This document shows, piece by piece, positions 1 to 64,000 of a DNA stretch of 64,000 bases. The notes under the pieces are model-generated. The model saw only the letters and a program-made list of their open reading frames with translations. It was not told where the DNA came from and ran no database searches. The stretch lies in NCBI RefSeq assembly GCF_004210375.1, contig NC_134828.1, forward strand, positions 20,452,400 to 20,516,399, written 5' to 3'. The translations under genes were made by a program, and so were the position numbers. Origin of the DNA: Tachypleus tridentatus. Taxonomy: Eukaryota > Arthropoda > Merostomata > Xiphosura > Limulidae. How positions within the stretch are numbered: position 1 is the first letter of the stretch; every line of letters begins with the position of its first letter.

Positions 1-56
1 TTTTTTATTACTACTTTTTTCAGTTGTGATCAGTATGCATCTATTTTTTGTCTTAG

Positions 57-162
57 AAACTGTACATCCTCCTTGATGAACCAGATGGAGTGGCAGGAGT
101 AGCAGCATCTCGTCAAGAAGACCCCACACTTCATGATTTGATTCTAGGTCATGAAGCAACTG
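57..162 (+). CDS. ATR FAT-domain exon (contig 1 copy)
   Basis: This exon follows a polypyrimidine tract and AG (acceptor at 55-56) and ends before GT at 163-164 with a good GTATGT donor. It opens in phase 0 and ends in phase 1. It encodes 35 residues including LLDEPDGVAGVAASRQEDP, which aligns with human ATR MHEPDGVAGVSAIRKAEP at the start of the FAT region. The coding sequence is identical to the exon at 20297-20402. No preceding or following ATR exon is present on this contig, so the copy is partial because of the contig edge and gap. It may belong to the same haplotype as contig 3. Confidence 0.85.
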
Positions 163-185
163 GTATGTAAAAGTAAATATTTCTT

Positions 186-360
186 TATGTATGTAACTGT
201 TAACCCTTTCCAGATGGGTCATGGGTCAAAGGCCACATCATTGCACTTGTCAACTTACATTCAAAATTTTATTGAACTACTATTTTATAACTTCTTAAGT
301 TTGGTATCAAACTGTATGTTAATATTTAAATTTTCATATTATACGTTATTTAAAAAAGAC
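186..360. repeat. Unclassified interspersed repeat, copy 1
   Basis: The segment holding ATGGGTCATGGGTCAAAGG reappears at 20426-20600 as the allelic or duplicate copy. It also appears in clearly diverged form at 16431-16600, where the matching core is ATGGATCATGGATCAAAGG. The diverged copy in a different intron shows it is an interspersed family. No terminal repeats or coding potential are visible. Confidence 0.5.
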
Positions 361-570
361 ACCTAAACATCGATTTTTGTGTGTCATGATGTGTTTTTAT
401 CTGATTTTTGAGTTATCTGTGAACTTTTAAATTTGGTTGTTTGTTAGTAATTCAAATTAGCATATACTAAGGTAATTAGAGAACTGATTTTGTGGTCTTT
501 ATTTACTGAGTACTAACTTAAACATAATTAAATTTTATCCTGTGTATAGTATTATCTACTAATTGATTTG

Positions 571-696
571 TTCCCAGTTGGTACAGCAGTAAGTTTATAG
601 ATTTACAATGCTAAAATCAGGGGTTCAATTCCCCTCGGTAGACTCAGCAGACAGCCAGATGTTTGCTATAAGAAAACATATACACACACACACACT
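571..696 (+). repeat. tRNA-derived SINE fragment with CA tail
   Basis: The head carries AGTTGGTACAGC, similar to a pol III A box, and GGTTCAATTCC, which fits the B-box consensus GGTTCRANNCC. The spacing is tRNA-like. It is followed by a non-tRNA body (CTCAGCAGACAGCC, TTTGCTATAAGAAAAC) and a short CA microsatellite tail. It cannot fold as a full tRNA, since the acceptor stem is not recognisable. The duplicate copy is at 20811-20925 and differs in the tail length and a few bases. Confidence 0.7.
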
Positions 697-928
697 TATT
701 GATTTTTGTTGTTTTTTATAAACTGGTAAGTCTATAACCTAGTTATTTTTGGTGAATTTCTGTTTTCTCAATCACTATGATTTTCTTTTACACAGATATA
801 CTATCCATTTATTTTATTAATTCAAGCTATGCTATTTTTATTAATTATTCTATTACATTGTATCCAACATAAAATTTATACAATTATACACTTGTGCTTT
901 TAATGTTTTAAAAAGTTGTCCAAAGATG

Positions 929-2310
929 ATGAGAAGTCTTCATGACAACACTGGTATTACTGATGATGATCTTTTTGCTTCCAGCATCTCTCTTCATCCT
1001 CAGATAACTTAACTCTGGGTGTACAAGCTAAAGAGGCATATTGAAAACTTCTTAAACAGCTTACCTGTTTGCTGTGGATGGACATACTTTGTCAGCATTC
1101 AAAACTCTAGTAAAGTATAAAAGCAAAATGGGGTACAGTTGATTTCAGATCTTGATAATGCCAATAGAAAGAAATAATTAATTAACATTATTGTTGAAGC
1201 CATTCAAGTTGCAGTACTTTTATGCAATGCTTAGTTGTGGTAGTTACACATGAAAACTGGCTCTAAAAATAAACAAACTGATTTTTGCTAAAGCAGTGAA
1301 GCAATGTTTTACAGTTTATTTCTGTTGTTGCCTTACAGAACATTGGGAGCTTTGGCGATGTAGGTACAAGTAATCTAAAGAGGATTATTGGTGATGGACT
1401 TAAAGATGATGGAAATGTTTTAATTCCATCAAAGAAATATGCTTACATGCTAATTTTAGCTACAGCTTATGAAGTCTCTTTTGACAAATCCTGTTTTTTT
1501 AAATATTGCCTTTAGAATTAAGAACTTAAAACTTGTATACTGTTATAATATGCATTATTAGCTGAGATGTTTATGCTATTCTAATTGTTCTAACAAATTA
1601 ATTAAATTTTGATTGTGAGACACTAAGATCTTGTGTCATGCCAAGTAAGTAATACTTTTGGCGATCGGTTTATCTTTTTCAGAACAAGCATCATAGTGTG
1701 AGAATTGACATTTGCTCAGTAGGTAATACCCTCTTCTCTAACTCATTTTCCATTGCATCAAGAGCTATGAAAGTTAACATAATTTCTTATAATGTTGTAA
1801 TCACTCACACAAAGCATAACTTTTATAGTCTTCGATCTCATTTGGTTACACATCCCAGAAATTGTAAATTTGTAAATCAGACCCAATGTGACATGCCCAC
1901 ATATCACATCCTCTTGTTTCAGAAATTGATGTGACATGTCCACATATCACATCCTCTTGTTTCAGAAATTGTAAATTTGTAAATCAGACCCAATGTGACA
2001 TGTCCACATATCACATCCTCTTGTTTCAGAAATTGTAAATTTGTAAATCAGACCCAATGTGACATGCCCACATATCACATCCTCTTGTTTCAGAAATTGT
2101 AAATTTGTAAATCAGACCCAATGTGACATGCCCACATATCACATCCTCTTGTTTCAGAAATTGTAAATTTGTAAATCAGACCCAATGTGACATGCCCACA
2201 TATCACATCCTCTTGTTTCAGAAATTGTAAATTTGTAAATCAGACCCAATGTGACATGCCCACATATCACATCCTCTTGTTTCAGAAATTGCCAGTAGTT
2301 ATCTGTGATG
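929..2310. other. 1,382-bp segment present only in the contig 1 copy
   Basis: Up to position 928 and again from 2311 this contig matches contig 2. In contig 2 the two flanks meet directly at CCAAAGATGTTTAATACC near 21157. GATG occurs at both edges, so either an insertion with a 4-bp target duplication or a microhomology deletion in contig 2 would explain it. The segment has no terminal inverted repeats. It holds unidentified AT-rich sequence and the 64-bp tandem array at 1855-2292. Confidence 0.7.
1855..2292 (+). repeat. 64-bp tandem repeat, about 7 units
   Basis: Seven cores of CACATCCTCTTGTTTCAG lie 64 bp apart, except that the first spacing is about 41 bp because one unit lacks its middle part. 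Units are nearly identical, differing mainly at ATGCCC versus ATGTCC. The strong homogeneity suggests recent expansion or gene-conversion-like turnover. Each unit contains a pyrimidine run followed by CAG that resembles a 3' splice site. Confidence 0.9.
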
Positions 2311-2434
2311 TTTAATACCACATTATGTGTAAATAATAGAAAGCCAACATTCTAAGGCTGGTGTAGAATCTCTAGCATCAGGGAAACATTTGCTGAGGCT
2401 TTATATCTTAACATCTTTTTATATTTTGGTTTTT

Positions 2435-2934: not shown

Positions 2935-5171
2935 TGACCACTGATTTGTGGACTAGTAATGCAATGCAAGGTTACATTACTATCACAGAACAACACATTG
3001 ACTTGCAATGGAAAATGCACTCAAATGTTCTGGGCACCAGACTCTTTTCTGATAGACACACAGGTCAAAATATTGCTTCTGAAATTCACAATCTGTGTTC
3101 TGAATTTCTAAACACCAACAATATTGTCCACTTAACTACTGATAATGCTGCAAATATGCTTGTGGCAGCAGAAAAGTTAGGCATTTCTCACTCTGGCTGT
3201 TTTGCCCACAGCCTTCAGTTAGCTCTGCAAGATGGGCTTAAGCTTGCACCCATTGCAAAAGCCCTTGGGGCAGGAGAAGGTTGGTTACATTCTTCAACCA
3301 TTCTGTTCTGGCCACAAGTGCCCTAAAACAAAAGCAAGTTCAGATGGCTACTGAAGCCCAGAAGGAACAAGTAAAGAAGGGTCCCATCATTGCAAAGAAC
3401 CTTATACAGGATTGCCCTACAAGATGGAACTCTGCGCTGGAGATGGTGCAGCGACTGGTAGAGCTCAGAGTGCCCATATATGCAGTGTTGGTAGACGCTA
3501 CCATTGTAAAAAGTGGAGAAAGATTTGACATTGATGATGTCTTTTGGGACACGATGCATACAATAATCCCAATACTTCATCCTTTTGCAGAAGCCACTGA
3601 AATTTTGGGAAGGAAGATCTTCCCACAGGGTCCCAATTTACCCTCTGCTGACAGATATGATGGAGGACCTTAAGACCACAGAGGAAGACAAAGCACTAGC
3701 TAAGCAGTTGAAAAAACAATCAGTATGGGATTGGTGAAAGATTTAAATTCTTGTCAGAAGATGGAGGAATCATTAATGAAGGTCTGAGATAGTTCCCTGC
3801 TGAAAGCTTCAGCACTTGATCCTAGATATAAAAGTACAATTTTGACCGAAAGTCAGAGAAAGGAACTTCATGCCAACATAGCAGAAGAAATCAGGAGATC
3901 AAGCAACACTGCAGAAGTCAAGAAGGAACCTGAGGCAGATGAGGTAACAGAACCACCTGTAAAAAACCCATTATGTCAAAAGTTTTGAGTTATGTAATGG
4001 GTGATACAGTAGACTTAACAGAAGGCAGTGATGTTTCTTCAGTTGAGGAAGAGTTGGCTGATTTTGTCAGAGAGCCTCTAAGGCCACCAAACCCTCTTCA
4101 GTGGTGGTCTGTGTACAGGTCAAGGTTTCCATCAATTGCTTCAGTTGCTAGGAAATACCTGTCTATACCTGGTACATCAGTACCTAGCGAACGTACATTC
4201 AGCACAGCAGGTTTGACCGTCAGCAAGCTAAGGGCTTCCCTTAACCCTGAACATGTGGATCAATTGGTGTTCCTGAACAAGAACTTGAAGTCAGCAGTCA
4301 AAGCCAACATGACAGTCCCTTCTGATTTTCTCCTGCATCTGATGCTCTCCCTGCAGTTACAGTTACCTGTACCCCTTCGAGTGCTGCCAGTACTAGCTCA
4401 CAGGTCTCTAATCCAGTTTTTATCCCCAACTTCCTGGGCTTCCATCCTCAAATGTAAAGGAGGAAACACCATGAACAGGAATGTGCATACACTCAGTATT
4501 TTCAGTGAAAGTTGTTTTATGAGGTTTTTTTTACAAATGTTTTATTGTTAGTGTTTAACTTTTAATATTTTCCAAGTAACAATGGACAGAGCATTAATAA
4601 TTGACCAGGATGTGGAACAGGTCTATGTGGCTGCAGCATAAACTCAGTATTTTATGTCTATTTTAACTTGTTTAGTGTTAATTGTTTTCTGATGTTTTTT
4701 ATGTTCATTAATAAAGTTCATGTTTATTAATAATGTTGTTTCCCAGTGTGTAGAATAAAGAAAACAAACAACAATAATTATTTTGACAAGTATTTTATTA
4801 AACACAGTATAGTAATATAATTACATAAATAAAATAATAATGGACAACAATTTTACAGCATCAAAATAAGAAAAACAGGTCACAGGTGCCAGAAGTCAGC
4901 TTTTGTACAGAGGCTCTACATTGAACAGAGCAGCAACAATATGGTTTACAGTAATACATTACCCATGGTGCACTGTGACAGGAAGTTCAAGAAAAGAATG
5001 TAAACTTCAGTAAATGATGAAAAAAACAAGTTATTTCTATCTTTACTGGCATAAATATTGCAATTTAAGGTAAGTTAATTATTAATTAATAATTCTAAAA
5101 CGATCTAACAAGTATATGCACGAATATTGGATATTCACGAATTTTCGCACGAATCTTCGAGTGCCGCCTGA
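2935..5171 (+). mobile_element. hAT DNA transposon remnant, 5' end lost in gap
   Basis: A decayed hAT transposase fills 2936 to about 4330 and is followed by AT-rich non-coding sequence. Near 5118-5160 the motif CACGAAT occurs three times within about 40 bp, which resembles the subterminal repeats of hAT elements. A possible element end is GCCGCCTG at about 5171. The left end lies in the gap, so neither the terminal inverted repeat nor the 8-bp target duplication can be confirmed, and the right boundary is tentative. Confidence 0.6.
2936..4330 (+). pseudogene. hAT (ZBED/Ac-like) transposase, broken
   Basis: The frame at 2936-3285 encodes TTDLWTSNAMQGY, then TTDNAANML with a likely catalytic aspartate, and CFAHSLQLALQDG, the conserved CxxH-type motif of hAT transposases. 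The frame shifts near 3283 and continues to about 3672 (DCPTRWNSALEM). After further shifts and stops between about 3670 and 3990 it resumes at 3973 with a hAT C-terminal dimerisation region: WWSVYRSRFPSIASVARKYL, SVPSERTFSTAGL, LRASLNPEHVDQLVFLN. The N-terminal BED finger is missing because of the gap. At least three frame changes make this inactive. The protein family is clear, but the exact hAT clade is not. Confidence 0.9.
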
Positions 5172-5811
5172 CATTTGTTGACCGGCCTAGTACAGAAGTA
5201 GTAGAAAAGGATAGACTTGATTATTACTGTTGTAATGCTAGAGTATAAGAGAAAAGTATATGATTTTGAAGCACTGGTATTGGAAATAAATTTGGAAAAA
5301 TTAGTTTTCAAAGGAGATGTTTGTAAATGATGTCCATAAATTTACAGAAAACAAATTCATTAGAAATTTTGAGTAATTCTTTTAAATTTTAATTCTAAGT
5401 TGAAAATTGGTGGAGACTTTCAAAAGTTTGAGTTTACTAGGGATTGATTGGACATAACTGTTCTCATCTTTGTTCACAACTAATTATTTTGTGAACATCA
5501 TTTCATTTTCATTAAACTTTTTTGCTACTGTGTTGTCTTAATGGATTACACTGACTATGTTACAAGTTTTCATTCTTTTTCATGGTTTTCCTTTGTCTGT
5601 GAAGAAACAATGTGTGGATATTGCTTTCACTGAAGCTGCATTTTTCCAGAATCTAAAGAGAGAAACATCTTTTCCTTCACAGGGCCTGGAGATCAGAGTC
5701 AGTTAAAGACAGTGTGGCAATATCCATCCTATCCTGCAAGAGTGATGTTAATTTGGAAATAGTTTTGTCTAAAATGAAGATCTACATATATGTACACATC
5801 CAAACCTCTTT
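5172..5811. other. Non-coding stretch, nothing identified
   Basis: AT-rich sequence without a supported exon, repeat or RNA gene. It is probably intronic or intergenic sequence upstream of the ATR exon at 11229. Confidence 0.5.
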
Positions 5812-6572
5812 AATTACTTCAAAAGAATATTGAGACTGTAAGTCTTCTGATATGGTATGCTTAAGCAGCTAAACAATTCTTAATCTTTATTTACATTCAC
5901 TTCTGAATATCCCAAAGTAAATGCGACAGAAAGGACATAAAGCAGGTATGGTTAAGTGTTATCAACTGAGAATTAGTACACTCTCTTATTAGGTATATAA
6001 TAATGTATATAAATGTGATGTAACATTTTATAAAGTGATACATAATACAGATATGAATATTGTAAAATATGTTTTAAATTTTAATCTCCAATAGCTGTTT
6101 ACCTATAAGTCATAAAATAAAAGGTTTTGTTCCAAAATATGATAGTTGCATGTAGATTGCACAGGGTATATCCCAATAGGCAATGGGTATATCTAGTGTA
6201 GAGTGTAACATTAATTTGCACTTTGATGGATTTTCATTCTGCCTCATTGATTTTCAAGTGAAGACCATGAGGACCCTTTTACTGTGGCCTGTATAACACA
6301 TTCCCAATGCTGTGTTTTTTAGTGGAGTTTATCAACTATGTACAGTTTGACATTCCTAGCCACACTATACATGTAGCACTTCTGTGAGCCAGTTCAGATT
6401 CTGGACTGTGCTTAGGTGAAAGTCTTGAAGCTAGTGAGAAGTGAAAACATTTGTATAAAGACATACCTGATTTATGTCCCCTTCTGAATGTAAAGAAAGA
6501 ACAAGGATAGTTTAAGCTGCTTAAGCATACCTTATCAGAACACTTACAGTCAAAATATTCCTTTGAATGAGA
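5812..6572. repeat. Long imperfect inverted repeat
   Basis: The left arm (about 5812-5960) includes GGTATGCTTAAGCAGCT and the right arm (about 6445-6572) includes its reverse complement AGCTGCTTAAGCATACC. Matching continues for over 100 bp with one roughly 30-bp length difference, and shared pieces include GGACATAAAGCAGGTATG against its near-complement in the right arm. The loop is about 480 bp. It could be a fold-back element or two copies of one repeat inserted in opposite directions. No target duplication was identified. Confidence 0.65.
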
Positions 6573-8879
6573 AAATTATGTGCAAATAGTCACGTATTTG
6601 TCACCAATATAATTTCAGTTTGTGTAAGCAAATTCGAAAATGCTAACATTAAAATGAAATTCCAGTACCTCAAATTTGAAGGCATTTGATGCTCTTTAGT
6701 TTAGTATTGTGGAAATATTTTGGGTTTTTTGGCAGTGTAGAAAATAGTTGAGCAAACCTTCACAAAAATAAAAAATTGTTTTAGCTGATGAAAATACATG
6801 TCAGTGACGTAGGAGTGGAGTGGAATGGAATCAATGTGTCTTTGTACATATGCTGACATTATGAGAAGGTCAACTTGCAGAAAGTGTAGAGAAAACCTGT
6901 GAAAGGAACTGTTAGTATCATCTTTAGTGTTGTAAATTTAACATTTTAAAGTTTTTTATCTTTGATGGAATGGTTGAATTGTGTTAAATTCAAGTAAATG
7001 ACTTATTATTTATCACAAATGTACTTTTGTTAAAATGGTTGTGTATGTTGTTTGAAAAATATTTGTTTTACCTTATTTAATTAGAGGTGTAGTACAGATT
7101 GTGTGTGTTGCAATGTATTTATCTTACTATGGCTTATGTATCATGATATGATAAATATAAAACTATAATAGATCTACCATCTGACATCAAATGCAAGCTT
7201 ATAGCAGTCTTTTGTCAAAATTTCCGAGATTGCCTGTTGTCACTCAATAAATCTGATGACCATTGATGCAAATGACCCCAAAATAAAACATATTTAACCA
7301 AAATTACTACAAATTTAAATATGCAAGATGATATATAGAAATACACTTATGATAGTTATCTAATTATGATGTTGCATTAATTTCGTTCTTGAAAGTCAAA
7401 AGGCCTCATTTACTTAATGTGATATCAATATATTATACTTTTCTATAACAGAGTTCAAATCAGTTTATTTATAACACTCATAACAAGCTTACACTTAGTT
7501 ATAATGTTATTTGTAAAACTTATTCTGCTGTATTTGTTGTGCTTATTTCTGTAGCTTAATGTAAAGAAACAACAACATTTAAGCAAATATTAATCATTTT
7601 CAAAATTACTTGTTTTGCATTGAAATTATTGCAGTTATATTTATTTTAGTATAAAAAATAAAATGTTTGATACTCAAAATAACCATGTTTTCTACAGTAA
7701 TAGAGAGTGTGCTAGCCTTGGTTTTATTAGCACTGACAACTGTGTTTTAATGCTAAACTACCAATATTGTTTTACAAACATAGACCTTATAATTAAATAT
7801 AAACCCTAAGCTATATTTTGAAATAAAAATATAATCATTCTGATAAAACTTATTCTTCTTAAATTTTATACAAATCAATGTTTGCTATGGTTGAATAAAA
7901 CACAACTAAACATGTCATATGTGTGATGTATATTTAAGGATAAAAATGTTTAGCTTTGTTCCTTTAGTATTTATCCTTGACCAGCATTACAAGTGAAAGA
8001 CAAAATTCCATGAAACTGTTGTAATTTAATGACAAGTAGTAAACTGAATGATACCTTGGTTAATATTTATTTTAAGTATTAAAAGTTTGTTACCCAGAAA
8101 GGTTAAGGTTTTTCTCTTTTGTTTTATGTGTATACATGGTTGTTAAATTGTGTTATATTAGCTGACATTACAGTAGTTTTATTAGTTGTTGATGTTTTGA
8201 ATCAGGTATTAATATTTCAAAATTATTAGGAAAGACACTCATTAAAATATCTAACATCTACTCATAGCCCCATAAAATTAACAATTGAGTGCTAAAACTC
8301 ACTGTAAAGTCTGTCTTAAGATCTCTTTCACAGTTAAAAGAACAAAATATATGTATGTATATAAATAAGATCTAGGCTGAATATTTTTATAAAGTGAATT
8401 TTTTTTTATTTGTTTTAATTTCAAAGTTTTCTGATCATAGTTGTCAGTTCTTATATTGCTGTTGAAAATCATATACTAGAAAATTAGTTTCTTGTTTGTG
8501 TTATGATATGCCTTAATATTTCATGTTAAATCTCAAATAAGTATTAACTTTGTCTTTACTGAATTAATTTTAACATTTTTAATGTTTGTTAATAGAAGGA
8601 TTGGGGATAAATGAAGTTAATGCAGTCGATTTGGTATTGGGCTTGTAAATAATATAATGCAAAATTAGTTTCCTGTTTAAGTTATTTTATTATATGCAGC
8701 ATTGCTGTTATTGTGCAGGAAGTGGCTGGCTTTGTTCTACATTTTGTACCTTAGAGCCTGGATGTATGGCCTCTTGCTTTTTAACTTATTTTCTCAACTT
8801 GTTGTGTCTTTGGAAGATTTTGTTCAGCATTTCCAACAGCTTTCTTTTACTTTTTGTTATTCAGATGAGGATCAGATAA
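6573..8879. other. AT-rich non-coding stretch
   Basis: No ATR exon or other gene was recognised on either strand. Short open frames at 8694-8890 give a leucine- and phenylalanine-rich peptide without a recognisable family. The sequence is probably intron or intergenic DNA, and its last part may belong to the repeat element that follows. Confidence 0.45.
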
Positions 8880-9417
8880 CTGTAGGATAATTCCATGTCA
8901 AATCATTCAGGTGGCTGCAGGTGACCCCCACAGAATTCCTTGAAAATTTTCACATGTGCTCATTTACCCATATAATGAAATATTGCCAAAGATTAGATAA
9001 GTATCTCTAATAGTTTCTGATTTACAGCACTGTAAAATTTAATTATTTATTTTTTATTTTTGGTGAATTCATTTTTGGGGAAATTTGGCTGCTTAAAGCT
9101 GCAAGAGTAATGGTAGTAGAAAGCTGAAATTTGCTACACTGACTGAATTAATCTCACAGAATTCAAAAATGGTCTCAAACCAAGTTTATCTCTCTGAGGA
9201 TTTGTATAGTGAGGCTGTACCATCAACTGAAAACCCAAAATTATAAAAAAAATTGGTTTATTTAAGAAGCCATAGCTCTAAGACTTAATATGCTACAATG
9301 CTGAATTTTGTTTTCAAATTTCCTATGACATATCAGTTGATAAATCAGCAATTCTTGTAGATAAAAGTCTGTTAGATCTCCTGTAAAAAATGTAGTTGCA
9401 TGCAACTTTTAATAATG

Positions 9418-9745
9418 TAGCTAAAAATAGCCCTATTTCTGGTCACAGTTTGACCATGTCATCAGTTATTCAGCCTTTTCAGATTTTTACCTTATATTCT
9501 TACATCTCTGAATATGATCTACAAAAAAAATCAGGATGGTGTTTAACCTACTTTTGAGTTATAATTTTTTAAAATATCCTCTGACCATACATTTTTTATT
9601 GAAAAACAATTCAGTTCAGGTGTGTTAATGTGTGCAAATATATCCATACAATTTTGAAAAATACCTGTCAGAATATTATGAATCCCACTGAAATATTGTA
9701 ACCAGCCTTTCACAATGTTAAATAATGAAGTTGTATGAAACAAGA
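9418..9745. repeat. Left arm of about 330-bp inverted repeat
   Basis: This stretch matches the reverse complement of about 10655-10983 at roughly 80-85% by eye. Examples are GCCCTATTTCTGGTCACAG here versus CTGAGGCCAGAAGTAGGGC there, and TGCAAATATATCCATA versus TATGGATATATTTGCA. Confidence 0.75.
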
Positions 9746-10138
9746 AAGATTTAATTCATTTCTGAACAAGTTTACTGGCATAACTAGTTAGATCACATGA
9801 CAATGCAAATATATTGTGTATGCATTACAGTTATGCAGATATGGCTGAATTTAAGATTCATAATATAATAAATACAAAGGTAAATCAGACACAAAAGGAC
9901 AGTGCTACAACAGGAGATAACTGAGAAAGATTATAGTCACACCAAACTGCAATAATCATGACAATGAAATGTTTCAAAAACTGCTTTGGTGATAAATTAG
10001 CCTTAACAACATCAAATAAACATTGATTTGTTGACACAGCTTGAATAAATTTCTAAAATTCGAGTTTGGTTATGTTGAGATCACTTTGACTTAGAACATA
10101 GTGGTGAGCACTACTGCCATGCAAGGTAGGTGCACTGA

Positions 10139-10650
10139 TCAGACAAAGAATATGTTGGAAAGGAATCCAGTTTCATCTTTATGTGACCTTGCAGGCCATG
10201 AGAACAGTTCGTTTCTTGATTTCTTCATAAATGACATCAACACAATGGAATGTTCATCTGATCTATCTTTTATGTTTCCCATATACCATTCATGATCGTA
10301 TAAGCATGCCACATATTTCCCTGGCTGATAATTGTCATTGCTATCATTAGACTCTATTTGAGCTGCTGTAGCATCACTTTCACTGTTACTACCAACAGTT
10401 ACAACTGTGTACACATCATCATCTGATAACCTTCTCATATACAATTTGTTGGTAGAATAAAGCTATGATGTGACTTAATACCTGCCACAGTTTTGTGTTT
10501 TTCATCGCACTCAAGTAGATCAAACTTTACACAATTCTGCAGGACTGATTCCTGATTGACCATAAAGAACTGAATGCCGTGAATGTGGTCCTTTGCCCAA
10601 TGGTACATATCAGAAACACTTAAAATTTGATAATTTATTATTTTACACAA
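10139..10650 (-). pseudogene. Fragment of conserved protein of unknown function, probably element-borne
   Basis: Read leftwards, two adjacent frames (10650-10435 and 10444-10139) form one domain-like unit. The first contains HIHGIQFFMVNQ, CVKFDLLECDEKHKTVAGIK and HHSFILPTN. The second contains YQPGKYVACLYDHEWYMGNI and a following FMKKSRNELFSWPAR. The second part resembles C-terminal segments (GQYVxCxYDxxWYxGN ... FMxxxxxxxxFxWP) that I recall from many uncharacterised, multi-copy invertebrate proteins. The one-base change of frame between the halves and the lack of an upstream region suggest a truncated remnant. Its place between inverted repeats suggests a transposon origin. The function is unknown. 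Confidence 0.5.
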
Positions 10651-10654
10651 CCTT

Positions 10655-10983
10655 GAACTTTTTGAAGATCATGTTCAGAGATGTAAGAATATATGGTAAA
10701 GGCTGATAAGAATATTTCAATGGTATTCATAAATTATTTCAAAATTTTATGGATATATTTGCACACAGTAACACACCTGAATTGAAGTTGTTTTTTTCAA
10801 GTAAACAACGTATCACAGGATACTTTAAAAAATTATAACACAAAAGTTGGTTGAACACCATCCTGATTTTTTTTTTTTGTTAATCATATTCAGAGATGTA
10901 AGAATATATGGTAAAAATCTGAAAAGGCTGAATAACTGGTGACATGGTCAAACTGAGGCCAGAAGTAGGGCTATTTTTAGCAC
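10655..10983. repeat. Right arm of about 330-bp inverted repeat
   Basis: This is the reverse-complement partner of 9418-9745. Within this arm, CAGAGATGTAAGAATATATG occurs twice (near 10676 and 10891), so the arm also contains a direct duplication. Confidence 0.7.
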
Positions 10984-10986
10984 GAT

Positions 10987-11103
10987 ACAGTCACACACGA
11001 TACCTTATATCTTTCACAGTAAGCACAGTCACACGTTATACCTTATATCTTTCACAGTAAACATAGTCACGTATGATACTGTAGGCCTTTCACAGTAAAC
11101 ATA
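10987..11103 (+). repeat. Short tandem repeat, period about 38 bp, 3 units
   Basis: Three units share AGTCAC near the start and CTTTCACAGTAA near the end. The first two are close (CCTTATATCTTTCACAGTA) and the third is more diverged. Confidence 0.8.
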
Positions 11104-11228
11104 TGGTATTGTGTGTATTTATTATTTCTCCACTTCCTAACGTTTTTCTTTTTTTCTGGAACTGAAGTTTTTCATGCTGTGTTTATGACTGTTTTCTTAT
11201 GTAAAGTACACATTTTTCTTTTTTGTAG

Positions 11229-11376
11229 GACTGTGCATCTTATGCACTGCAGGAAACCCACAGATATATACTTGTCAAAGTGGAGAGTTGTCACAAATTG
11301 TGAGACCAAGTAATAGTCTTTGGAACAGGTTTTCAGAAGAGATTCAAGAAATTTTGGTACCTTTGCAGCACTCCAG
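11229..11376 (+). pseudogene. ATR exon with a frameshift (pre-FAT region)
   Basis: The acceptor TTTTGTAG ends at 11228 and the donor GTATGT follows 11376. The first codons read DCASYALQE, matching human ATR SAYALQE. The later part reads IYTC and SLWNRFSEEIQEILVPLQHS in another frame, matching human IYDC and QLWRRFPEHVREILEPHL. The switch falls at GAAACCC near 11255, where one extra base would restore the frame. In the unshifted frame a TGA follows soon after. This may be a true mutation or a homopolymer error. The exon has no second copy in the window to compare with. Confidence 0.8.
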
Positions 11377-46964: not shown

Positions 46965-46995
<31 letters not shown>

Positions 46996-49850: not shown

Positions 49851-49944
49851 TCCCCTTTATTGTTACTATAGGAAACTTTCTCACTGTCCCATCAGTCAGC
49901 ACACATATATGTACTTTTGCCATTATCTGGTCATTTGATACTAG

Positions 49945-51725: not shown

Positions 51726-52627
51726 ATTTAACACCAAAGATGTATTCAAACTGTTTAAATCTACCTGTTCATTGAGAGCATATGAAAATAAGTTCATACC
51801 ATGAATGTGATGTTATGTAGAAGATCTTGTAACATAAATTTTCAATTAATTTTGATTTTTGCCATTGGTTATAATCATACACAACATTATAGCAAAGTTC
51901 TTGAGAAAACTTAGTTTCCTTCCTGAGTTTTAAAGTATAATCATAGTATAAATAAACTTTTGTATCTCAATAAGAAAATAAATGCTTTAATTAGCAAAGA
52001 TGTATTTCCAACATTCAAGTGCAATATATATTTTTTTTTATATGTTAGTAATGTAAATGTATTTGGAAGAAGTGAAGAGGCATGTCACTTAAAGATTATT
52101 CATGTCTCTAGGAAATATTCAAAATACTTTTGGATTGATGTGGTAAATTTTGTTCCACCCTTGACTATCTCACATAGTGTAAAATTGTAAGAACTCAGCA
52201 GATGGGACCTTTATCAGCAGCCTCCATGGAAAATGGTGGATACAGTCACATTCTCAGGTAATTATATTAAATCTCCATTTATATAAAAGTATAAATCACC
52301 ATACATGTTATCATGTTCTTCAGTAATTTTTTATATCTACTTACAAGGGAATAGTTAATACCAGTGTGGATTCCACCATGGTATCAAGTGATTGCAATTG
52401 ATTTTATTTCTATTTACAAGATAAATTGTATGTACCAGGGTAGATATAATGTTCTCACGTAACTGTTTTATCACATTATAAGAAAAGTGATGCATTTCAT
52501 GCTTACAGAATTAAGAAATAAGAGTTTAAATGAAAGTAACTAACAAAGGATTAACAATCATATTGACAAAAGTCTTAAAGTAATGGGCACAAAATAAACT
52601 GAAGAAGCAAAAATATAAAAGTTCTGA
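51726..52627 (+). other. Intron with decayed minisatellite-like units
   Basis: It matches 24861-25766. Old units of the 61-bp family are visible at about 52225-52480 (ACCAGTGTGGATTCCACC, ACCAGGGTAGATATAATG). Confidence 0.55.
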
Positions 52628-53585
52628 GGTTACATGGAGAATGGTACATATCATTGTGGATATCTTTGAAGTAATTGTTTTAATGTCTAATTACATGGAG
52701 AATGGTACATATCATTGTGGATATCTTTGAAGTAATTGTTTTAATGTCTAATTACATGGAGAATGGTACATATCATTGTGGATATCTTTGAAGTAATTGT
52801 TTTAATGTCTAATTACATGGAGAATGGTACATATCATTGTGGATATCTTTGAAGTAATTGTTTTAATGTCTAATTACATGGAGAATGGTACATATCATTG
52901 TGGATATCTTTGAAGTAATTGTTTTAATGTCTAATTACATGGAGAATGGTACATATCATTGTGGATATCTTTGAAGTAATTGTTTTAATGTCTAATTACA
53001 TGGAGAATGGTACATATCATTGTGGATATCTTTGAAGTAATTGTTTTAATGTCTAATTACATGGAGAATGGTACATATCATTGTGGATATCTTTGAAGTA
53101 ATTGTTTTAATGTCTAATTACATGGAGAATGGTACATATCATTGTGGATATCTTTGAAGTAATTGTTTTAATGTCTAATTACATGGAGAATGGTACATAT
53201 CATTGTGGATATCTTTGAAGTAATTGTTTTAATGTCTAATTACATGGAGAATGGTACATATCATTGTGGATATCTTTGAAGTAATTGTTTTAATGTCTAA
53301 TTACATGGAGAATGGTACATATCATTGTGGATATCTTTGAAGTAATTGTTTTAATGTCTAATTACATGGAGAATGGTACATATTGTGGATATCTTTGAAG
53401 TAATTGTTTTAATGTCTAATTACAAGGAGAAAGGCACATATCATTGTGGATATCTTTGAAGTAATTGTTATAATGTCTAATTACAAGGAGAAAGGCACAT
53501 ATCATTGTGGATATCTTGAAGTAATTGTTTTCATGTGTAGTTACATGATGAATAATATTTACCATTGTGGATTTCTTCAGGTAGT
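52628..53585 (+). repeat. 61-bp minisatellite, homogenised copy
   Basis: Thirteen units run from about 52630 to 53400 at an exact 61-bp period. The first twelve are essentially identical (TGGAGAATGGTACATATCAT core) and the thirteenth lacks a few bases (TACATATTGTGG). Two GGAGAAAGGCAC variants and one degenerate unit follow. The contig 2 array has about the same length but many variant units. Confidence 0.95.
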
Positions 53586-54009
53586 TGTTCCCCTCATTCT
53601 GGATTCCTGTGATTGGTGAGGGACCTCCCAGGGAGGTTCTGTTCTTTTAGTTTACCTCTTTTGTGATCTAAAGATCCACCAACATGTGTGTTGTGCATGG
53701 TGACCCATGAAGAGGAGGAGAAGATCCTGATGGTTGAGGGGTCCAACCCTAACATACCACTGTGGCCTTGAATTCCTGTAGATGGGCAGCCTTGGGGTGG
53801 CTCCCCTTGGGTCAGTTGGCTGGTTCACTTGGCCTAGGGTTAACCAAGTACCAGTGTTGGATGTTCTCAGCAGGTGTTGTGGACATTGTATCTGATGCTG
53901 GTGTTTGGGTATAGTGCTCATGAAACCCTGGTGTTGCTCCAGTGTTCTTGTTTGGCATTGTAATGCCATCCACTCATAGGGCTTTATGGTGGGTGGGGAC
54001 AGTGGACAC

Positions 54010-55285
54010 CGAAAAATTCATTTTTTATTATGGACCATCCAAATAAAAAGTTAACCAAAATAGTGAAAAACAGTTTATGAGTAAACAATAACATCTTGAA
54101 GATTCTGAGCAGCAATCTTTAACATTTGTAACTTCTGTACCTTATTTTATTATACTACATTTTCTTTCAGACAAACCTTTAGGGCAAATGTCTCCCTTTT
54201 TCATTCAGAAGGGACCAGAAGGTCTCACTGGCTCTCCAAAGTTGGTCAGAAGGATTCGCTCTTGTGACATATTGGTAGAAATATCCACATCTCGAGCACA
54301 GTGAATTCCTCTTACATTCCAAGGCAATATACCTATTGAGGTTATGCCTCATTCAACTTTGAATTCGTAACAAGAAGTTATTGTTGATAGGGATTTGAAG
54401 AACATCCTGAGTCAGAGATTCCCACTGGTTTCTCCCACCACAAGGAGTTTCTTCAGTAAGGTGTATCTCCACTCCCAAAGATGGAATTTTGATGCCGATC
54501 AATGTCCTCATTTTAACATTTACATCACAGCATCCACCTGCTACCAACAAGGCAGGTTATTTTAACTGCAAGGTACGGCCATACATTCCAAACCCTCTCG
54601 GATAGTTCCGGTGTCAGCCATTTGATCACTCGGAGACATCATGTCTTGGTTCCTTGACATGTGCTCGTTGCAGTGGCAAGGATTATGGTGCCTCTGAGTA
54701 TGAAACAGACCCTTGTTGCATCACTTGCAATGGCTCTCACCCATCTTACTTTTATTCTTGCCCTAAATGGTTGGAAGGAATAAAAAGGTACAGTGTTTAA
54801 AGACGATTCAAAACATTACTTGCCCTGAGGCTTGAAAATTGCTATCTACCACTTTATGTTTGACTTATGCTGATGCACTTCATTCCACTACTACAGTGGG
54901 AGTGCAGACAGATCTCTCTGTACCTCCAAAAGAATCATTCTCAAAACAAACAGAAAGTCTTCTGACATCCATGGTTAAAAAAGTTAATGAATCAATGTCA
55001 ACACCCATCTTTGTCTCTAACATTAATTTCAGCAAACCCCAATATCTGCTTCCTTTGGTTTTGGTTACACTTTCTTCTCCTTTCCCAAGGTGCAAAATGA
55101 TCATTTGTTTGCACCCTAAGTCACTGGAATCCTCTTCTAACAACAAAGACTTGCCCAATCAACCCAGGGTAGGATCCATTGAGGTTGGTAAACCTCCCTC
55201 GAATAAAGACAATAAAGAAATAAAACATGGTCTGCACCCAATTTGCCTAAACATAAATAAAAGTAGCCACCTTGATACAATGTAA
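54010..55285 (+). pseudogene. LINE ORF1, copy B, broken
   Basis: As in copy A, but the last frame is longer: 54839-55285 gives 148 residues, including DALHSTTTVGVQTDLSVPPK and ESFSKQTESLLTSMVKKVNE, which in copy A is split by small deletions. The CCHC-type region lies near 54600-54770. Confidence 0.75.
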
Positions 55286-55359
55286 ACTGTTGAAGTTTAC
55301 ATTCTAATCTGGGTGACATCAAAACACTTATTTCTTCCTACCATCCTGTATGTCTTTCC

Positions 55360-58300
55360 TTGCAGGAAATCTTTCTGAAACTTGCTGATACAATCACCTT
55401 TCAGCAGTTTTCTTTGTACAGAAATGACAGGCTGTGTGATGGACAAGTGCATGGAGGGGTAGCACTGTTGGTTGATCAGCATGTGCTTACCCTGTCTTTG
55501 TTACTCAACACACCCTTGGAGGCTGTAGCCATTTGTGTTTCTTTGTGTCGTATCATCACTGTTTGTTCTCTCTACCTGTTGCCTAGAGAGACCTATGATC
55601 AATCAGACCTTGATGCTCTCATTAAACAGTTGCCATCTCCATTTTTAATGCTGGGGGGGCTTTAATGGAAATCGTCCCCTCTGAGGAAGTGCTGATATTG
55701 ATGGGAGGGTCACTCCGTAGAGTGTATGCTCTCTGATCACAACTTTTCTCTCTTCAATAGTGGTTCTTATACTTATTTTCATGCATCTTGTCAGTTCTTT
55801 ACTGCTTTTGATCTCTCCATTTACTCCCCTTCACTATTCTCCCACTTTTCGTGGAGGGTTGACAATAACCCATGCAGCAGTGATAATTTTTCTACAATTT
55901 TGAGAGAGACTGGCTGTGGTCAATGCCACCCAACCCATGTGCACCAATGGAAAAAGGATCAAGCAAACTTGCTCTCTTTTACTGTTCTTACAGAACTTGA
56001 TCCTGCCATCATCTGTATGCCATCAATAGATGACTGTGTGACAGCAATAACTGACTGTATTGTACAGAAAGCTGCTCAAAGTATTCCTAAAGCCTTGACA
56101 TATTTTCCACAATATCATCATCTGTGGTGGAATCTTGCCTGCCACATGGCACAGAAGACTCAAAAAATGGACGTGGGATACTTTTCATAGGTATCCCACA
56201 TTCTCGAATCGCATCGCTTTCCAACAGGCCCGTGCACATGCTTGGTGGGTAATATGTCAAAGCCAGAAGGACTCTTGGATTAAGTTCACAACCAACATAT
56301 CTTTTATCACCAGTTGGGCAGAGTAATCACTTCTTTCCTTTGAGCTGATTGTCTCTGTGACTATAATCGTCCCCTTACACTGGCTCTTCATCAGTCTGTC
56401 AGTACATTCGGTTGGATCTGATGATGTGCACAATGAAATGCTGTGCTATCTCTTTCCTGCTTCTCTTGCTGTTTTTTTTATTGTTTTCAACCAGATCTGG
56501 CAGGAGAATGTTTTCCTGATGCCTGGCACTGAGCTATATTCCCATCTTTCTCTAAGCCTGGGAAGGATCCGAAGATTCCTTCAAACTACCATCCAATTGC
56601 TTTGATGAAATGTCTCTGTAAGACCTCAGAGAGGATAGTTAAAGCTCGTCTTGTTTGGTTCCTTGAAGAAAATAACCTCCTCTCGCCCACCCAGTGTGTG
56701 TCCTAACGACAGTGCTCCACCATGGACCACTTGATTCAACCTGAAACATTAATCAGAGAAGCTTTTCTCAAATGACAAAATCTTGTATCAATATTCTTTG
56801 ATATTGAGAAGGCTTGTGACACAACATGGAGGTATGGCATTTCGCGAGACCTCCATATATATGGGTTACTTGGCCATTTACCCATGTTTATTAAAAAATT
56901 TTTAATGGACAGGTGATTCCAAGTTCATGTGGGTTCAACACATTCCCGTTTTTATCTACAGGAACTTGGAGTTCTTCAGGGCTGTGTTTTGAGTGACACA
57001 TTTTTCAGTATAAAGATTAATGCCATCACTGAACTACTCCCTCTTACTGTTGCATACGGTCTCTATGTCAATGACTTTCACATTTCATGTCAATCATCAA
57101 ACATGCAGTATATTGAGCGACAGCTACAAACTGCCCTCAATTGTTTTCTGAAGTGGATCACTGCAAACAGTTTTAATTCTCTCTCTCTAAAACTGTTTGT
57201 ATGCACTTTTGCCACCAATGGGGTATTCACCCTGATCCTGAACTCAATATTGGTGAAGTTGTGCTAACTGTGGACTTATCTTTGACTGAAAGCTGAGCTT
57301 CATAACACATACCAAGCAGCTACAGGTCAAATGTACAAGAGCACTGAACATCCTCCACGTCCACTCTTGCACATCTTGGGAGTGGATCAATGTTCTTTGC
57401 TAAAGATATATCAGGCTATTACTTGATCAAAACTAGAGTATGGATCACTGGTCTATGGCTCTGCCAGCACCTTGGCCTTCAAGATCATCATCAGGGACTT
57501 CAGCTCTGCACCAGGGCTTTCAGCACTTCTCCTGTTCATAGCTTATACGTAGAATCTCATGAACTTTCTTTGCACCTCTGCCGTTTGCAACTGTCTTTAC
57601 TGTATGCTTCAAAACTTCAGTCCTTACCATAACATTCCACCTGGGATTATGTTTTCCTTCCTCAGTGGGCCATGCTTTTGCAAAATAGACAATCAGCCAT
57701 TGCTCCTTTTGGCCTTTGTATCCAAGTACAGTTGGATGAATTGGGTCTATCCTTGGAAACATTTGCTGTATCCACTTGTCAGCTAATCCTACCATGGCTT
57801 ATTACAGTCCCAAGATGTAACCTTTCTTTAAGTCATCTGAGAAAAGCAGACACTCCTGATTGGAAATACTGTATGTTATTTGCAGAACATCTTTCAAACC
57901 ACCCTTCCATTCCTATTTATACAGATGGTTCAAAATCAGGTGACTCTGTGGGCTCAGCCATGGTTTGGTGGTTGTGCAGAGAATCCTCTCTACAGTTTCT
58001 GTGTTCACTGCTGAACTGTATGTCATTTCTCTTGTCCTGTATCACACAGAAGCTAAGCAGTACTCAAATTGTACTATTTATACTGACTCGCTTAGTTCTC
58101 TACTGGTCCTTGAATTGTTTCATCTTAGTTCTTACTGATATTCAAAATCGACTGGCCCATTTCTCTTTAACATCTACTTCTGTCCAGTGTTTCTAGATAC
58201 TGGGCCACATTGGTATTTGCAGGAACGAGCTTGGTGACACTGCAGATAAATCTGTCTGCTCTGGCTCTATCACTGCTGTTTCTGTTCCATACGTGGACTA

Positions 58301-58380
58301 TGGTCCTGTATTCAAGGCTCATCTTTATGCCAGTTAGCAGTCGACTTGGAGTGAGCAACGTGAAAACAAGCTTTTCTAAA
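55360..58380 (+). pseudogene. LINE ORF2, copy B: endonuclease, RT, RNase H; broken
   Basis: The endonuclease frame 55360-55665 reads NDRLCDGQVHGGVALLVDQH and ends PSPFLMLGG. The RT active-site region 56929-57267 again has YVNDFHISC, so the Asp to Asn change predates the split of the copies. RNase H begins IYTDGSKSGDSVGSAM near 57915. Stops and frame changes are mostly shared with copy A. Confidence 0.85.
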
Positions 58381-59483
58381 TAAAACGTGCTATTGGACTT
58401 TGGCTATCTTGCTTTCTTAAGGACCAGAAATGGAAAGAGGAAATTGTCCTAACTAGACTACACATTGGTCACAGTTTTTAATTCATCGTTTTCTTTTATC
58501 TGGGACTGATGCACCAATGTATTGTGTGTTACATTAAGCCACATTTTACTGTTTCGGTGTCATTACAACTTAATTATGGCACCATTTTAAACATGTTTTG
58601 TCCCAAGGTTTATTTGTTAGATATTGTTATTGGCGATGGTGACATTGTCCACCTTTGAAATGTTTTTAGTTGTTTAAAGTCTATTAATCTTTTAATGCTA
58701 TTTAAGTTTGTTTTTTTTTTTTTTTACTTTATATATTAGACATTTTTTGATGTGATTCACTTTTAAGGATCAAAGTACATCTAGTTCAATCTAAAATTAG
58801 AAAATGGCCATAACATCCAATAACTTGAAACCAGGAATGGAAAGACCAACTTCAGGTGACTAATGCTACTTTTTAACTACCTGTTGGTCATTCTGGCAAG
58901 TTATGATAATTATAATTATGCTATAAAAGTCCTTCACAACTTGTATTACTGTAGTTTTCTTCTTACTGCTGTAGACTAGATGTAAAAGTTGGATTTAATG
59001 CTATTTGTGTTTTTAATTCAAAATGTAACTTTGTTTTGTTTTATTTTAATTTCCTTTAATGAATTTTAATAATTTTACTTTACTTTTAACTTTTAACCAG
59101 ATGTTTGGTGCACATAGCCTGGTTGCTAGAACACCAAATCAACCAGCCATCCATGTAATTGTTTCCATGTCTAGTTGCATGGAAATGTTACATTATATTT
59201 GGGGGTATCATCATATCATCAGATATTATTCTTTTATCTTAGTAACAGTGAATTAGAAGTATGTTTTTTTATTATGCTGCTTTCAGCTGTGTTTTCTTTT
59301 CATGCTAAAAAATGTTTGAATGGTTTAGAAAGATATTTAACATGATTCTCTATCTCAGTTGTGTTTTTCTTTTGTTAGTTTACTTTTTTTATATATATAT
59401 ATATACTAGTTTTTCTGTATTCGTCAGACACTGAAATGTAGTTTGTTAAGATTTTAGGGAGTATGTGTTTGTTTTTCTTCCAG

Positions 59484-59623
59484 ACTACACATGTTGACAG
59501 ATATGGAGAAAGCAGTCTAAGTTTTTACAGGTCTCTGCCCTTCATTTCAAGGAAGCTACTCCTCAGTCAGTAGATTGAACTCCACTCTTAGAAGAGTGGA
59601 GAGGAAGAAGAAAATTGGTTCAA
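59484..59623 (+). pseudogene. ATR FAT-domain exon with stop (copy B)
   Basis: Counterpart of 32659-32799 with acceptor CTTCCAG and donor GTATGT. LHMLTDMEKAV is followed by TAA in frame, and the later TGA at the position of the human Trp is also present. It is one base shorter (five T instead of six). The shared stop shows the lesion was fixed before these copies diverged. Confidence 0.82.
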
Positions 59624-60414
59624 GTATGTGTTTCAGGTTTTACTTTTATTACAAATAGAATATATAAAACTGCAGTCTCAAAAGCTAGGAATGATTTTTT
59701 TATCTAATGATATTGATAATTTAACTTATAGTTTGTATACATTACTGATTATTTCTTTAAAGCTTTAAAGATACCAAATGAGATGTGAAGAGAAAAATAG
59801 AAAGCACTTATCATTCTTGTTTTAAAAAAAAAGTGTCTCATTATATATCGGGAGCAGCTACTCTAATGATAAGAACTTCAACATTTATATCTTTGATATT
59901 GTACATTTTTTAGGTACGAGAACACATTTCTGAGTTTAAAAACATAAATTGTTTAAAGCAGATTATACAATATAAATAATAAAGAATCATTTAATGATCA
60001 TATACACAAACGTTTTAAAATAATTAGTATACTAATAATCAAAGTCTACATTAAAACAAAGATTAAAATTTTATTAATCTAACCTTGAACAGGCACTTAT
60101 AGTTCTGTTTGTCTCTCTAGAAATAATTAAAAGTAATATAGAAATGAAATTTACTGAAATACCATGACCCAAACTTAAAGATATACCATTTTAATTATAA
60201 CAACTGTTTCATTGGTTTTCATATAATATTTGTCTATTTTACTTAATTCTTTATTTTAAAGGCTAAAATTTAGATGAATTATATTTTATGATTATAAATG
60301 TTTGTTAATTGTATATAACTTCCCTTTAAACAGTACTTAGTAGAGGAGATCTTGAATTAGAAATAATATTTTGTATTCATGAGTGTTTTTTTTTTAAACT
60401 TCTTTGTTTTACAG

Positions 60415-60557
60415 TCCTCACTTCGTTATCAGGAACCTCTTCTTAATCTGTACCGGGTTCTCCTTACAATAGCCAAGAACAACATTCCTGAGCAGACCAA
60501 AAAGATTGATTACGAAATCGTAACTTGCTGGTTACAAAGTGCAAAACTTGCCAGAAA
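60415..60557 (+). CDS. ATR FAT-domain exon (copy B)
   Basis: Identical coding sequence to 33590-33732, with acceptor GTTTTACAG and donor GTAGGT. It encodes SSLRYQEPLLNLYRVLLTIA and CWLQSAKLAR. The upstream T run is longer by one base. Open reading frame, phase 0 to 2. Confidence 0.9.
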
Positions 60558-61408
60558 GTAGGTTTTATTACACTGCAAATAAATTCTTGTAATCACCTCA
60601 TCTGTACTGTTCCTTTAACTTTTCAGTCGATTATTAATCTGATCTATTCTTTCATTAATATCATATAGTAACATACATTTCTCTGAAATGTGTATGGAGT
60701 ATTTCAGAGGCATCAGACCTGGAGGTGTTGTAACATCCCCACTTTTACATATTTTACATGCATAGCAACTGTAAATTATTATATCAATTTTCTGGTGAGG
60801 ACATGCCCTAAATCTTTACAGACTTAGCTGACTTTGACAGCAGGGGGGAAACACTTTTAGCAGCTTCTTATACTTTAAATTCCTCGTTGTAAATTTTGCG
60901 TGTCTAGTCAAGCACTCCACCTATTTCTCTCCTTCCTGCACCACTAATACTGAAGATATCACATTGAAAAGTTCCTAAACCTGTCAGTGCATGCATGTAG
61001 AAGTTATTACTCATTTCTAATTCTTTGTAAGACATTATTGAGCTTTTATGTACATTCTCACAGAGAGAATATTATATAATGTGTTTATGGGGTATCATTT
61101 TCTTCTAACACTTTGTTCACATTAACAGAATCATTAATGTTTATTAAATTATTTTAATTTATAATCACAGTAAAGTTATATATTAGTCTCACAATTTATA
61201 CAAGTAGCACACCTTGGTTGTAAGCTTCTGATGAAAATTTAAACTAAATGCAGTTTAAAAAAAAACAAATTCGTAATCCAGTTTACTGAGTTAAGTTGGG
61301 GGAGTATTTCTCATCAAAATCTGACTTTTTGATTCTGTTGTTAGTGTCACATAGTAAAATGTTAAAGAAATAATTTATGATCCATGATGGTGAGAAAACC
61401 TGCTACAT

Positions 61409-61450
61409 AGAGTTTTTCTCTGCCCATACCAGCCGTTTTTACATATATAT
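61409..61450 (+). repeat. Solo end of the fold-back element (copy B)
   Basis: Counterpart of 34581-34623, with CCCATACCAGCCGTTTTTAC. Confidence 0.6.
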
Positions 61451-63562
61451 TTTAATTATGCATTGTCACTTTAGCCTAAAATTATGTCAAGTTAAAAGAC
61501 ATGTATTATTTGTAACCCAGTTATAAGTTTTGAAAGAAAACTTCATATTTAAAATGATTCTATCTTCATAGATAAGGTCCATAAGTTTTATACAGGAATG
61601 ATCAAACAAAAGAGGACATTACAAACCAAATCATACTGTTTCAAAAATAATTTTGTTTACCATCTGGCATTGCTTTTATTTCTCTTTTTGTCAACAGTAT
61701 GATAATGGAGATTTAAATGTGTGCCATTACTCAGAATATTGTAAGAACCATTGAACTTTGTTTAGAATAGATTATTTTTGAAGTTGCTTAATTTTTAGGG
61801 ATTAGCTTGATACCAGAGTAGCAAAATGTCCAAAATCGTGAGGGTACAGACCTCAAACTTTACAGAAATATGGAGGCCTACTGATGGATGTAATGAAACT
61901 AAAGCTTGTTTCAGTTGATCTGATAGATATTTGATTATGTTCTTCTATCTCACATTTTCTGTACATAAGTGAATAAATACAACATACATGTTTCAGGGGA
62001 CTGTAAGTCTGGCATAAGAGGTGATGAGGATAACATTTTGTGTGTGTGTGGATTGATATGGTTCTTGTGCAGAACTGGGTTTGAATATGAAAATGATATT
62101 GTATTGATAATTTGACAATTACCCCACTAGCAGTTTTCTGAACTTTAAGGTGGAATTATTCTGTGGCATGGTGGGCTTTTATAATAGATTACTTTTACCA
62201 GTTACTGTGTATCTCTTATATTTCTGAATTCTAGTGTTTTTTAGTCTTGATGTTTCTACAGCATATTGGAATCCACAGAAGATGCTGTATATGATCTCTC
62301 TCTGTTAGGTGATTTGATACAAATTAATTACAGTTGTTTTTGGCTTCTAAATGCTTTTCTGACTTAATATTGTGTACATATCCTGTATATGTGTTTTTAG
62401 AGAAATTTCTGACATATAGTTTTCTTCTTAGAGTAATGCTAAAATAATAGGACTTGAACCCCATATAACAAAAGGTAATACGAATAAATGTATACATCTG
62501 GTTACTACTGATATCATACATAATCTACCTAGGATATCAATCAATCTAAACTTGTATACCCCTATTGAAAATATTCAAACACAGAGAATGAGTCAATGAT
62601 TTTGTTGGAGTACTGCAGCTCATGTTGCCACATAGTTGTGCTCTGTCTAACGATTGTACATCTTGACAATATTCTGACAGCACAGTCTCCATTACAGAAG
62701 GCTCTTTCATGCAACTGTCATGTAGAAATTACATCTGAAACTTGATAATTAGGCTTTTCAGCTCGTAATCTACAGATTACAGGATTGAACCTCATTACTG
62801 AACATGTTTGCCCTCTCAGCTGTGGGAACATTATATATTGTGACAGTCTGTCCCACTATTCAGTCTGACAAAGGTTAGTGGTGAATGGTATTGGCTAATT
62901 GCTTTCTATATAATTCATCACTCAAAATTAGAGAAGGCTAGTGCAGATGGCTCTTGTGTAGCTTTGCATAAACATTCAACAACGAGTCTCAGGACACCAT
63001 GCTTTCTATAATTGATTTAATTTATGGGGACATTAGTTTCTCAGTGCTTGTTTTGGAAGTTTGTTAGTACAGGAATCTGTAAGTGCTGTATCTAGGTTTG
63101 TTTTTTTTATGATAATAAATGCTCTTTGTTTTAACTCGTGTATTTTTATAGCCACTTCAAGTTCTTGACATGCTTGAAGCTTTCATGTGTTCATCAACTA
63201 ATCTTGTGCATATTAATAGCTTGTATTCAAGTTCACTGCTAAAGTCCAGAACTGGTACTAGATTTGAATCATTAGAATAAATATTATATTTGATAGTAAT
63301 TCATCTGATAACTGTAGAATTAGTACCATACACTAAGTGAAGAATTTATTTAAGAATGAGTTGTAATTAAATTATATCATTAGATTTAACTGTTATTAAA
63401 AACTAAGAAGTATCTGTGTAATAATTAATTGCATAATTATATTAATTATGTAATAATTAATTGCATTATTATATTGCATACATTATGATTAGAATCCATT
63501 AACTGTACAATGAATCATGTCCATTAATTTTCAGAATAGTATTTTCAACCTGTGTTTTTTAG

Positions 63563-63681
63563 AAGTGGTCATCAACAGAGGGCTTATAGTTGTCTGCTAG
63601 AAGCTTCAGTATTAAACATACCTGAGACATTTGTGGAAAAATCTAAGTGGCACTGGAATAAAGTAAATATAAATCTCAGTG
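63563..63681 (+). CDS. ATR FAT-domain exon (copy B)
   Basis: Counterpart of 36732-36850 with a longer pyrimidine tract (TGTGTTTTTTAG). It encodes SGHQQRAYSCLLEASVLNIP and ETFVEKSKWHWNKVNINLS, aligned with human ATR AGHHQTAYNALL and YVERAKWLWSKGD. Open, with donor GTAATA after 63681. Confidence 0.88.
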
Positions 63682-64000
63682 GTAATATTTTTTGTAATTA
63701 TTAAAGCAGATACTGTTCTTAGTTGTTTGTAAAACTTTTGATGAAATTATTTAAAGTACCTCTTTTTAATATTTTTGAAATGCCAAAATTGTGAAATTGG
63801 AAGCTCCAGGATTTTGCTGTGATTTAAAATTTTTGAACTATTATGTTATAATGTAGTAAATTTGAAAATTATTAATTTATAAATGTCACTTTTTTAAACT
63901 TTGAAACTGTTAAATTATGAACATTGTATGTTCTAAATGTATACATTTGGAAGTACAAGATTCTGGAACTTAAAAGCATTAAGAATTTAACCTTGGAAGT
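63682..64000 (+). other. ATR intron at window end
   Basis: AT-rich intron matching 36851-37167, with nothing else recognised. Confidence 0.6.

Follow-up and report, generated by a model that had tools for sequence, protein, structure and literature searches.

Probable segmental duplications of kinase-less ATR pseudogenes and a probable scaffolding error in the Tachypleus tridentatus genome

The stretch analyzed here (hereafter, the window) comprises 64,000 nucleotides of NC_134828.1, i.e., C4:20452400-20516399 of the searchable 2.17-Gb Tachypleus tridentatus genome, and holds sequence derived from the ATR kinase gene. Its three contigs are separated by two N runs (Table 1), each exactly 500 long, as the preliminary description of this DNA had reported. 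ATR exons were mapped across 264 kb in and around the window using human ATR as the probe. Exons at 14764-14970, within 19365-19631, and at one place beyond the window match human ATR. To the left of the window, exons for human ATR 994-1200 and 1368-1422 lie in order on the plus strand; exons for 1415-1714 continue up to contig 1 and those for 1824-2061 follow in contig 3, again in order and on the plus strand. Contig 2 holds its own exons for 1415-1714 and 1824-1970. The map spans about 100 kb with the introns kept, as in unprocessed pseudogenes, and at those loci that were read the UME exon is flanked by splice-site dinucleotides. Several single exons are weak (E 0.02 to 0.9) and were accepted because they are in order and common to several copies. 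Neither kinase exons nor exons below human residue 994 were found in the 264 kb.

Table 1 Features of the window. Positions are those of the window; residue numbers refer to human ATR.
Feature	Position	Strand	Remarks
Contig 1	1..2434	+	right end of the 123.6-kb contig A (C4:20331234-20454833); part of the direct ATR-derived copy
Exon 1678-1714 in contig 1	57-167	+	
1.38-kb stretch with 64-bp tandem array	929..2306	+	absent from contig 2; the inverted copy has a 1.0-kb version; bordered by GATG on both sides
500-N joint, contig 1/contig 2	2435..2934	.	
Contig 2	2935..41384	+	further ATR-derived copy; probably misplaced
Contig-2 left part	4700..8700	+	full length elsewhere only in the inverted copy (C4:20401577-20405594), among 40 of 346 candidates scored
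Exons 1415-1462, 1477-1503, 1519-1548, 1548-1613 in contig 2	11230..14973	+	first three frame-broken by small deletions
Exons 1614-1677 and 1678-1714 in contig 2	19374..20410	+	frame open
Hairpin arm (22979-23082) and deletion junction (23083/23085) in contig 2	22979..23085	+	
ATR FAT-region exons in contig 2	25315-25401, 33587-33733, 36730-36843 (within 25315..36843)	+	
Decayed LINE-like insert in contig 2	within 25315..36843	+	weak RVT_1 remnant at 30071-30439, below Pfam's cut-off
500-N joint, contig 2/contig 3	41385..41884	.	
Contig 3	41885..64000	+	extends to C4:20559868; continues the copy that ends in contig 1
Stretch repeating contig 2's 23085-37167	49945..64000	+	self-BLAST and alignment
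Exons in contig 3	52181-52258, 60412-60558, 63561-63674; beyond the window 72556-72732	+	12-bp deletion in 52181-52258

Contig 1 had been described as repeating 20240-21283, and contig 3 as repeating 23085-37167 from 49945 on; self-BLAST recovered both repeats at nearly these coordinates. Positions 1-928 match 20240-21159 (97.6%) and 2307-2434 match 21156-21283 (96.1%), while 23085-26712 match 49945-53589 (96.8%) and 25823-37167 match 52630-64000 (98.9%). Counting substitutions alone, contigs 2 and 3 differ by 0.43% over 14,547 aligned bases (26773-41374) and by 0.64% over 2,660 (23085-25761). The match between them continues past the window's end almost to the right end of contig 2 (41374 corresponding to 68205), and leftwards from contig 1 the match to contig 2 ends at contig 2's 10987. 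The lack of 929-2306 from contig 2 reflects either a deletion or an unfilled insertion site. In contig 2, position 23083 directly abuts 23085; contig 3 holds an extra 8 kb there (41885-49944). The paralogous introns also contain a 61-bp tandem array, with 16.6 copies at 25762-26760 and 15.6 copies at 52630-53577.

The same sequences recur in the genome at large. The exon for human ATR 2001-2061 was found at 26 places, i.e., 22 on C19 (a 69.8-Mb chromosome), three on C4, and one on C3 (27 matches, two of which are one split match; all 28 candidates scored). Segment 33300-37100 has 28 full-length copies (22 on C19, five on C4 including contigs 2 and 3, and one on C3) plus partial ones, and segment 38000-41384 has at least 23 full-length copies. 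The UME exon gave at least 18 matches (14 on C19, two on C4, one on C3, and one on C9), a lower bound because the search missed a copy in contig A at C4:20428807 that the exon map shows. Merged matches form 49 clusters, 38 of them on C19; these join hand-picked matches from several segment and exon searches on one strand and within 40 kb, and neighboring clusters may belong together. The segment searches scored the best 40 candidates: those with 19000-21000 and 33300-37100 reach down to short repeat matches, and those around 23083/23085, at 38000-41384, and at 4700-8700 end above them, which makes absence there weaker evidence. The unit thus recurs over at least 1 kb, with at least 90% identity, at two or more places, as segmental duplications do, and is not merely a transposon but holds ATR exons and introns. 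On this reading, the window would lie where recent segmental duplications of the central part of ATR (exons for human residues about 994 to 2061) are clustered.

A functional ATR requires PI3/PI4-kinase exons, and a genome-wide search for this domain gave 28 matches, none on C19 and none in the C4 cluster. Of seven matches read, only that at C3:67839195 was recognized as ATR (E 3e-22; next protein 3.5e-14); by our reading, one match on C12 resembles SMG1 and one on C10 resembles mTOR. Among full-length copies of segments 33300-37100 and 38000-41384, those on C3 score lowest (about 97%), and among eight UME loci read, that on C3 diverges most from the others; a parent gene would be expected to behave in this way. 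In the presumed parent, the kinase (C3:67839195) and FAT-region (67874096) exons lie on the minus strand and the UME exon (67977858) on the plus strand, a discord explained either by an inversion or by a contig that is misoriented or missing at this locus as well. The window's 19000-21000 has only a 154-bp repeat match on C3. Separately, a stop-free PI3/PI4-kinase domain at C1:31864081-31864710 lies inside an uninterrupted 1689-aa frame and is perhaps a retrogene. Protein-kinase matches on C19 number two of 125 (from 123 scored candidates out of 2,257); C19 makes up 3.2% of the genome, so about four would be expected, and the count says nothing firm about this chromosome. We give hardly any credence to the conjecture that C19 is a special chromosome, sex or B, where ATR pieces lacking the kinase were amplified and then retained for an interference of their transcripts or truncated proteins with germ-line ATR checkpoint signaling.

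Disabling lesions were found in all nine copies sampled, four of which are from C19. A 7-bp deletion in the exon for 1614-1677 is present in seven of the nine: an inverted copy in contig A (C4:20386176-20407374), the copy at C4:20.28 Mb, the four on C19, and one on C10. The two without it are contig 2 and the direct copy that ends in contig 1; both retain this exon intact and are disabled by a stop or by different frameshifts. In the direct copy, the 1415-1462 exon contains a stop, the 1519 and 1548 exons have each lost 1 bp, and two exons have in-frame 12-bp deletions. In contig 2, small deletions affect the 1415, 1477, and 1519 exons, and the splice donor after 25401 is altered. Amplification of working ATR genes was rejected on account of these lesions and the lack of kinase-domain matches on C19 and in the C4 cluster, and we infer the copies to be functionless. 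Because one frameshift is common to copies on different chromosomes, the pattern suggests that the ATR fragment multiplied as a passenger once already dead; alternatively, the 7-bp deletion may have been passed between copies by gene conversion. We consider it likely that the window represents a segmental-duplication family of kinase-less ATR pseudogenes combined with a probable scaffolding error.

The scaffolding error concerns the order of the three contigs. Among the matches listed, the left arms of other copies end exactly at the equivalent of 23083 in 13 of 15 cases and no more than 3 bases away in the remaining two, and their 24 right arms all begin at 23085. The arms are 9.9-10.6 kb apart in ten of 11 paired copies and 5.0 kb apart in the eleventh. 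With the inverted copy as a ruler, the sequence lost between contigs 1 and 3 comes to 4,184 bp, and 2,382 bp of it fall after 23083; adding the 8,060 bp that contig 3 holds to these 2,382 bp gives a spacing of 10,442 bp. Contigs 1 and 3 fit as one copy because this equals the usual spacing, and they would be two pieces of it with about 4.2 kb missing between them. The earlier observation that they bracket contig 2 and belong together stands; the further claim, which makes contig 2 the second haplotype of their copy, is not supported overall. The scaffold itself states that contig 2 is a full extra copy inside that of contigs 1 and 3, and the cluster already holds copies in both orientations, but for the order to be real an insertion would have to fall precisely in the missing stretch of roughly 4.2 kb, with both contig breaks at the same place, and we regard this as very unlikely.

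The junction at 23083/23085 in contig 2 matched only itself genome-wide (one match with up to 3 mismatches allowed; none for a reversed control). The 104 bp that precede it are followed in other copies, immediately past this point, by an inverted counterpart of 83-86% similarity, which places the junction at the tip of a hairpin. The stretch missing there, about 10.5 kb in most other paired copies, holds exons for about human ATR 1715-1791. The two halves of contig 2 have different affinities: 2935-23083 match the inverted copy in contig A, and 23085-41374 match contig 3. Its 2935-10987 are matched collinearly by the inverted copy and not by the contig-1 copy. Divergence is lowest from the inverted copy (0.35% over 18,179 sites) and reaches 0.61% over 10,126 sites from the direct copy. 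In a three-way comparison of 10,104 sites, 56 of them informative, 41 group contig 2 with the inverted copy and 15 with the direct copy (p 0.0007, treating linked sites as independent). This affinity and the shared left end are what would be expected if contig 2 were the other haplotype of the inverted copy and its surroundings, misplaced by about 50 kb. Past 23083, however, the inverted copy continues for about 4.6 kb into a 36-kb satellite rather than into the sequence of 23085-41384, and at about 18-19 kb it is the contig-1 copy that contig 2 groups with. We hold this reading as a possibility on the unlikely side; it is one way in which our preferred explanation could hold, and the chances of the two overlap.

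The preliminary description had taken shared fossil insertions and the very high identity of intron sequence to favor alleles over an old duplication, with contig 2 as the other haplotype of the contig 1 and 3 copy. The divergence of just 0.4-0.6% agrees with this, as does the bracketing of contig 2 by the other two contigs. The argument fails on identity alone and was rejected in that form, since two copies within one contig are 0.51% apart (11,128 sites), as much as the supposed alleles, and non-allelic copies are closer to that in contig 1. Over 3,580 sites, the contig-1 copy differs from that at C4:20.28 Mb at 8, from C19:38.94 Mb at 11, from C19:33.19 Mb at 15, and from contig 2 at 17; these columns, from about 17.5-21.2 kb, were chosen to be free of the misaligned end of the contig-1 copy, which inflates all-column distances. 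At 38000-41384, 17 C19 copies outscore contig 3 as a match to contig 2, with a 27-bp indel partly lowering contig 3's score. Nor is the match collinear through both flanks, as on the left it stops at contig 2's 10987; on the right it goes on almost to the end of the contig. The 26 places and 28 full-length copies are far more than the two that false duplication of alleles would leave. With the 41:15 split also pointing to the inverted copy, we judge this allelic reading improbable. In this family, alleles and paralogs cannot be distinguished by identity, and the data neither need alleles nor exclude them.

Several observations weigh against the explanation that we prefer. The contig 1 and 3 copy is the best match of contig 2 in two of the four segments ranked genome-wide (19000-21000 and 33300-37100) and nearly so at 23085-24200 (1939 versus 1944 bits). 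Contig 2 and the direct copy share the intact 1614-1677 exon and the loss of 1 bp from the 1519 exon, contig 2 and the contig-1 copy are sisters in a tree of a 3.6-kb piece (support 0.948), and the affinity at 18-19 kb points the same way. Against a mutual closest relationship along the whole length stand the scores at 38000-41384, the 41:15 split, and the distances over 3,580 sites. Some of the C19 copies could themselves be unpurged haplotigs, in which case the true copy number may be lower, and the misplacement of contig 2, though probable, is not proved.

Under the segmental-duplication reading, contig 2 looks like a mosaic, which would be expected if copies exchanged sequence. It is probably another family member, whose left half for the most part comes closest to the inverted copy 48-69 kb leftward, with a deletion of its own, of about 10.5 kb, starting at the hairpin tip. 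The resemblance of its two halves to both neighbors is probably what led the scaffolder to set contig 2 into the gap between contigs 1 and 3. Anyone counting genes or repeats here would then be misled in two ways, as the scaffold order is probably false and an identity-based purge of haplotigs would delete real paralogs. The family would be a clear young example of a dead fragment of a checkpoint gene spread mainly over one chromosome.

Segmental duplications that carry unprocessed pseudogenes are a known kind. The present family resembles them in being long, intron-containing, mostly over 95% identical, and distributed within and between chromosomes with broken exons, and differs in its source gene, ATR, and in having most of the copies found on one chromosome. 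Exon order and protein matches agree with human ATR, whereas the copies show no kinase exon and, where sampled, broken frames. We know of no comparable case of ATR-derived duplications concentrated on one chromosome, and a literature search found no report of ATR gene copies of this kind in titles and the beginnings of abstracts. In false duplications of genome assemblies, or haplotigs (e.g., PMC9516828, PMC8081667), near-identical stretches are likewise split by N joints in one scaffold and lead to wrong gene counts; the family in the window differs in its many copies, its presence on several chromosomes, and a closeness that does not follow an allele pattern.

Other elements were found in and around the ATR-derived sequences. 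Rfam and tRNA searches of the window gave no matches. Two blocks of 34-bp satellite, with units about 70% alike, lie in and beside the ATR cluster at C4:20345893-20381540 and 20560369-20566399. Within contig 2, 5188-8700 is a dispersed repeat whose long copies, mostly 92-98% alike, occur on many chromosomes, many of them on C19. A decayed hAT transposase lies at 2952-4548 (Dimer_Tnp_hAT, E 3.6e-20 in 3943-4548). An almost full COX1 on C205, translated with code 5, looks arthropod in our judgment. COX1-like fragments in the nuclear contigs C9, C13, C3, and C8 are probably inserted mitochondrial DNA. A minus-strand reading frame at 45650-46108 matches Pfam HTH_23 alone, below the cut-off, and presumably resembles the N-terminus of a mariner transposase.

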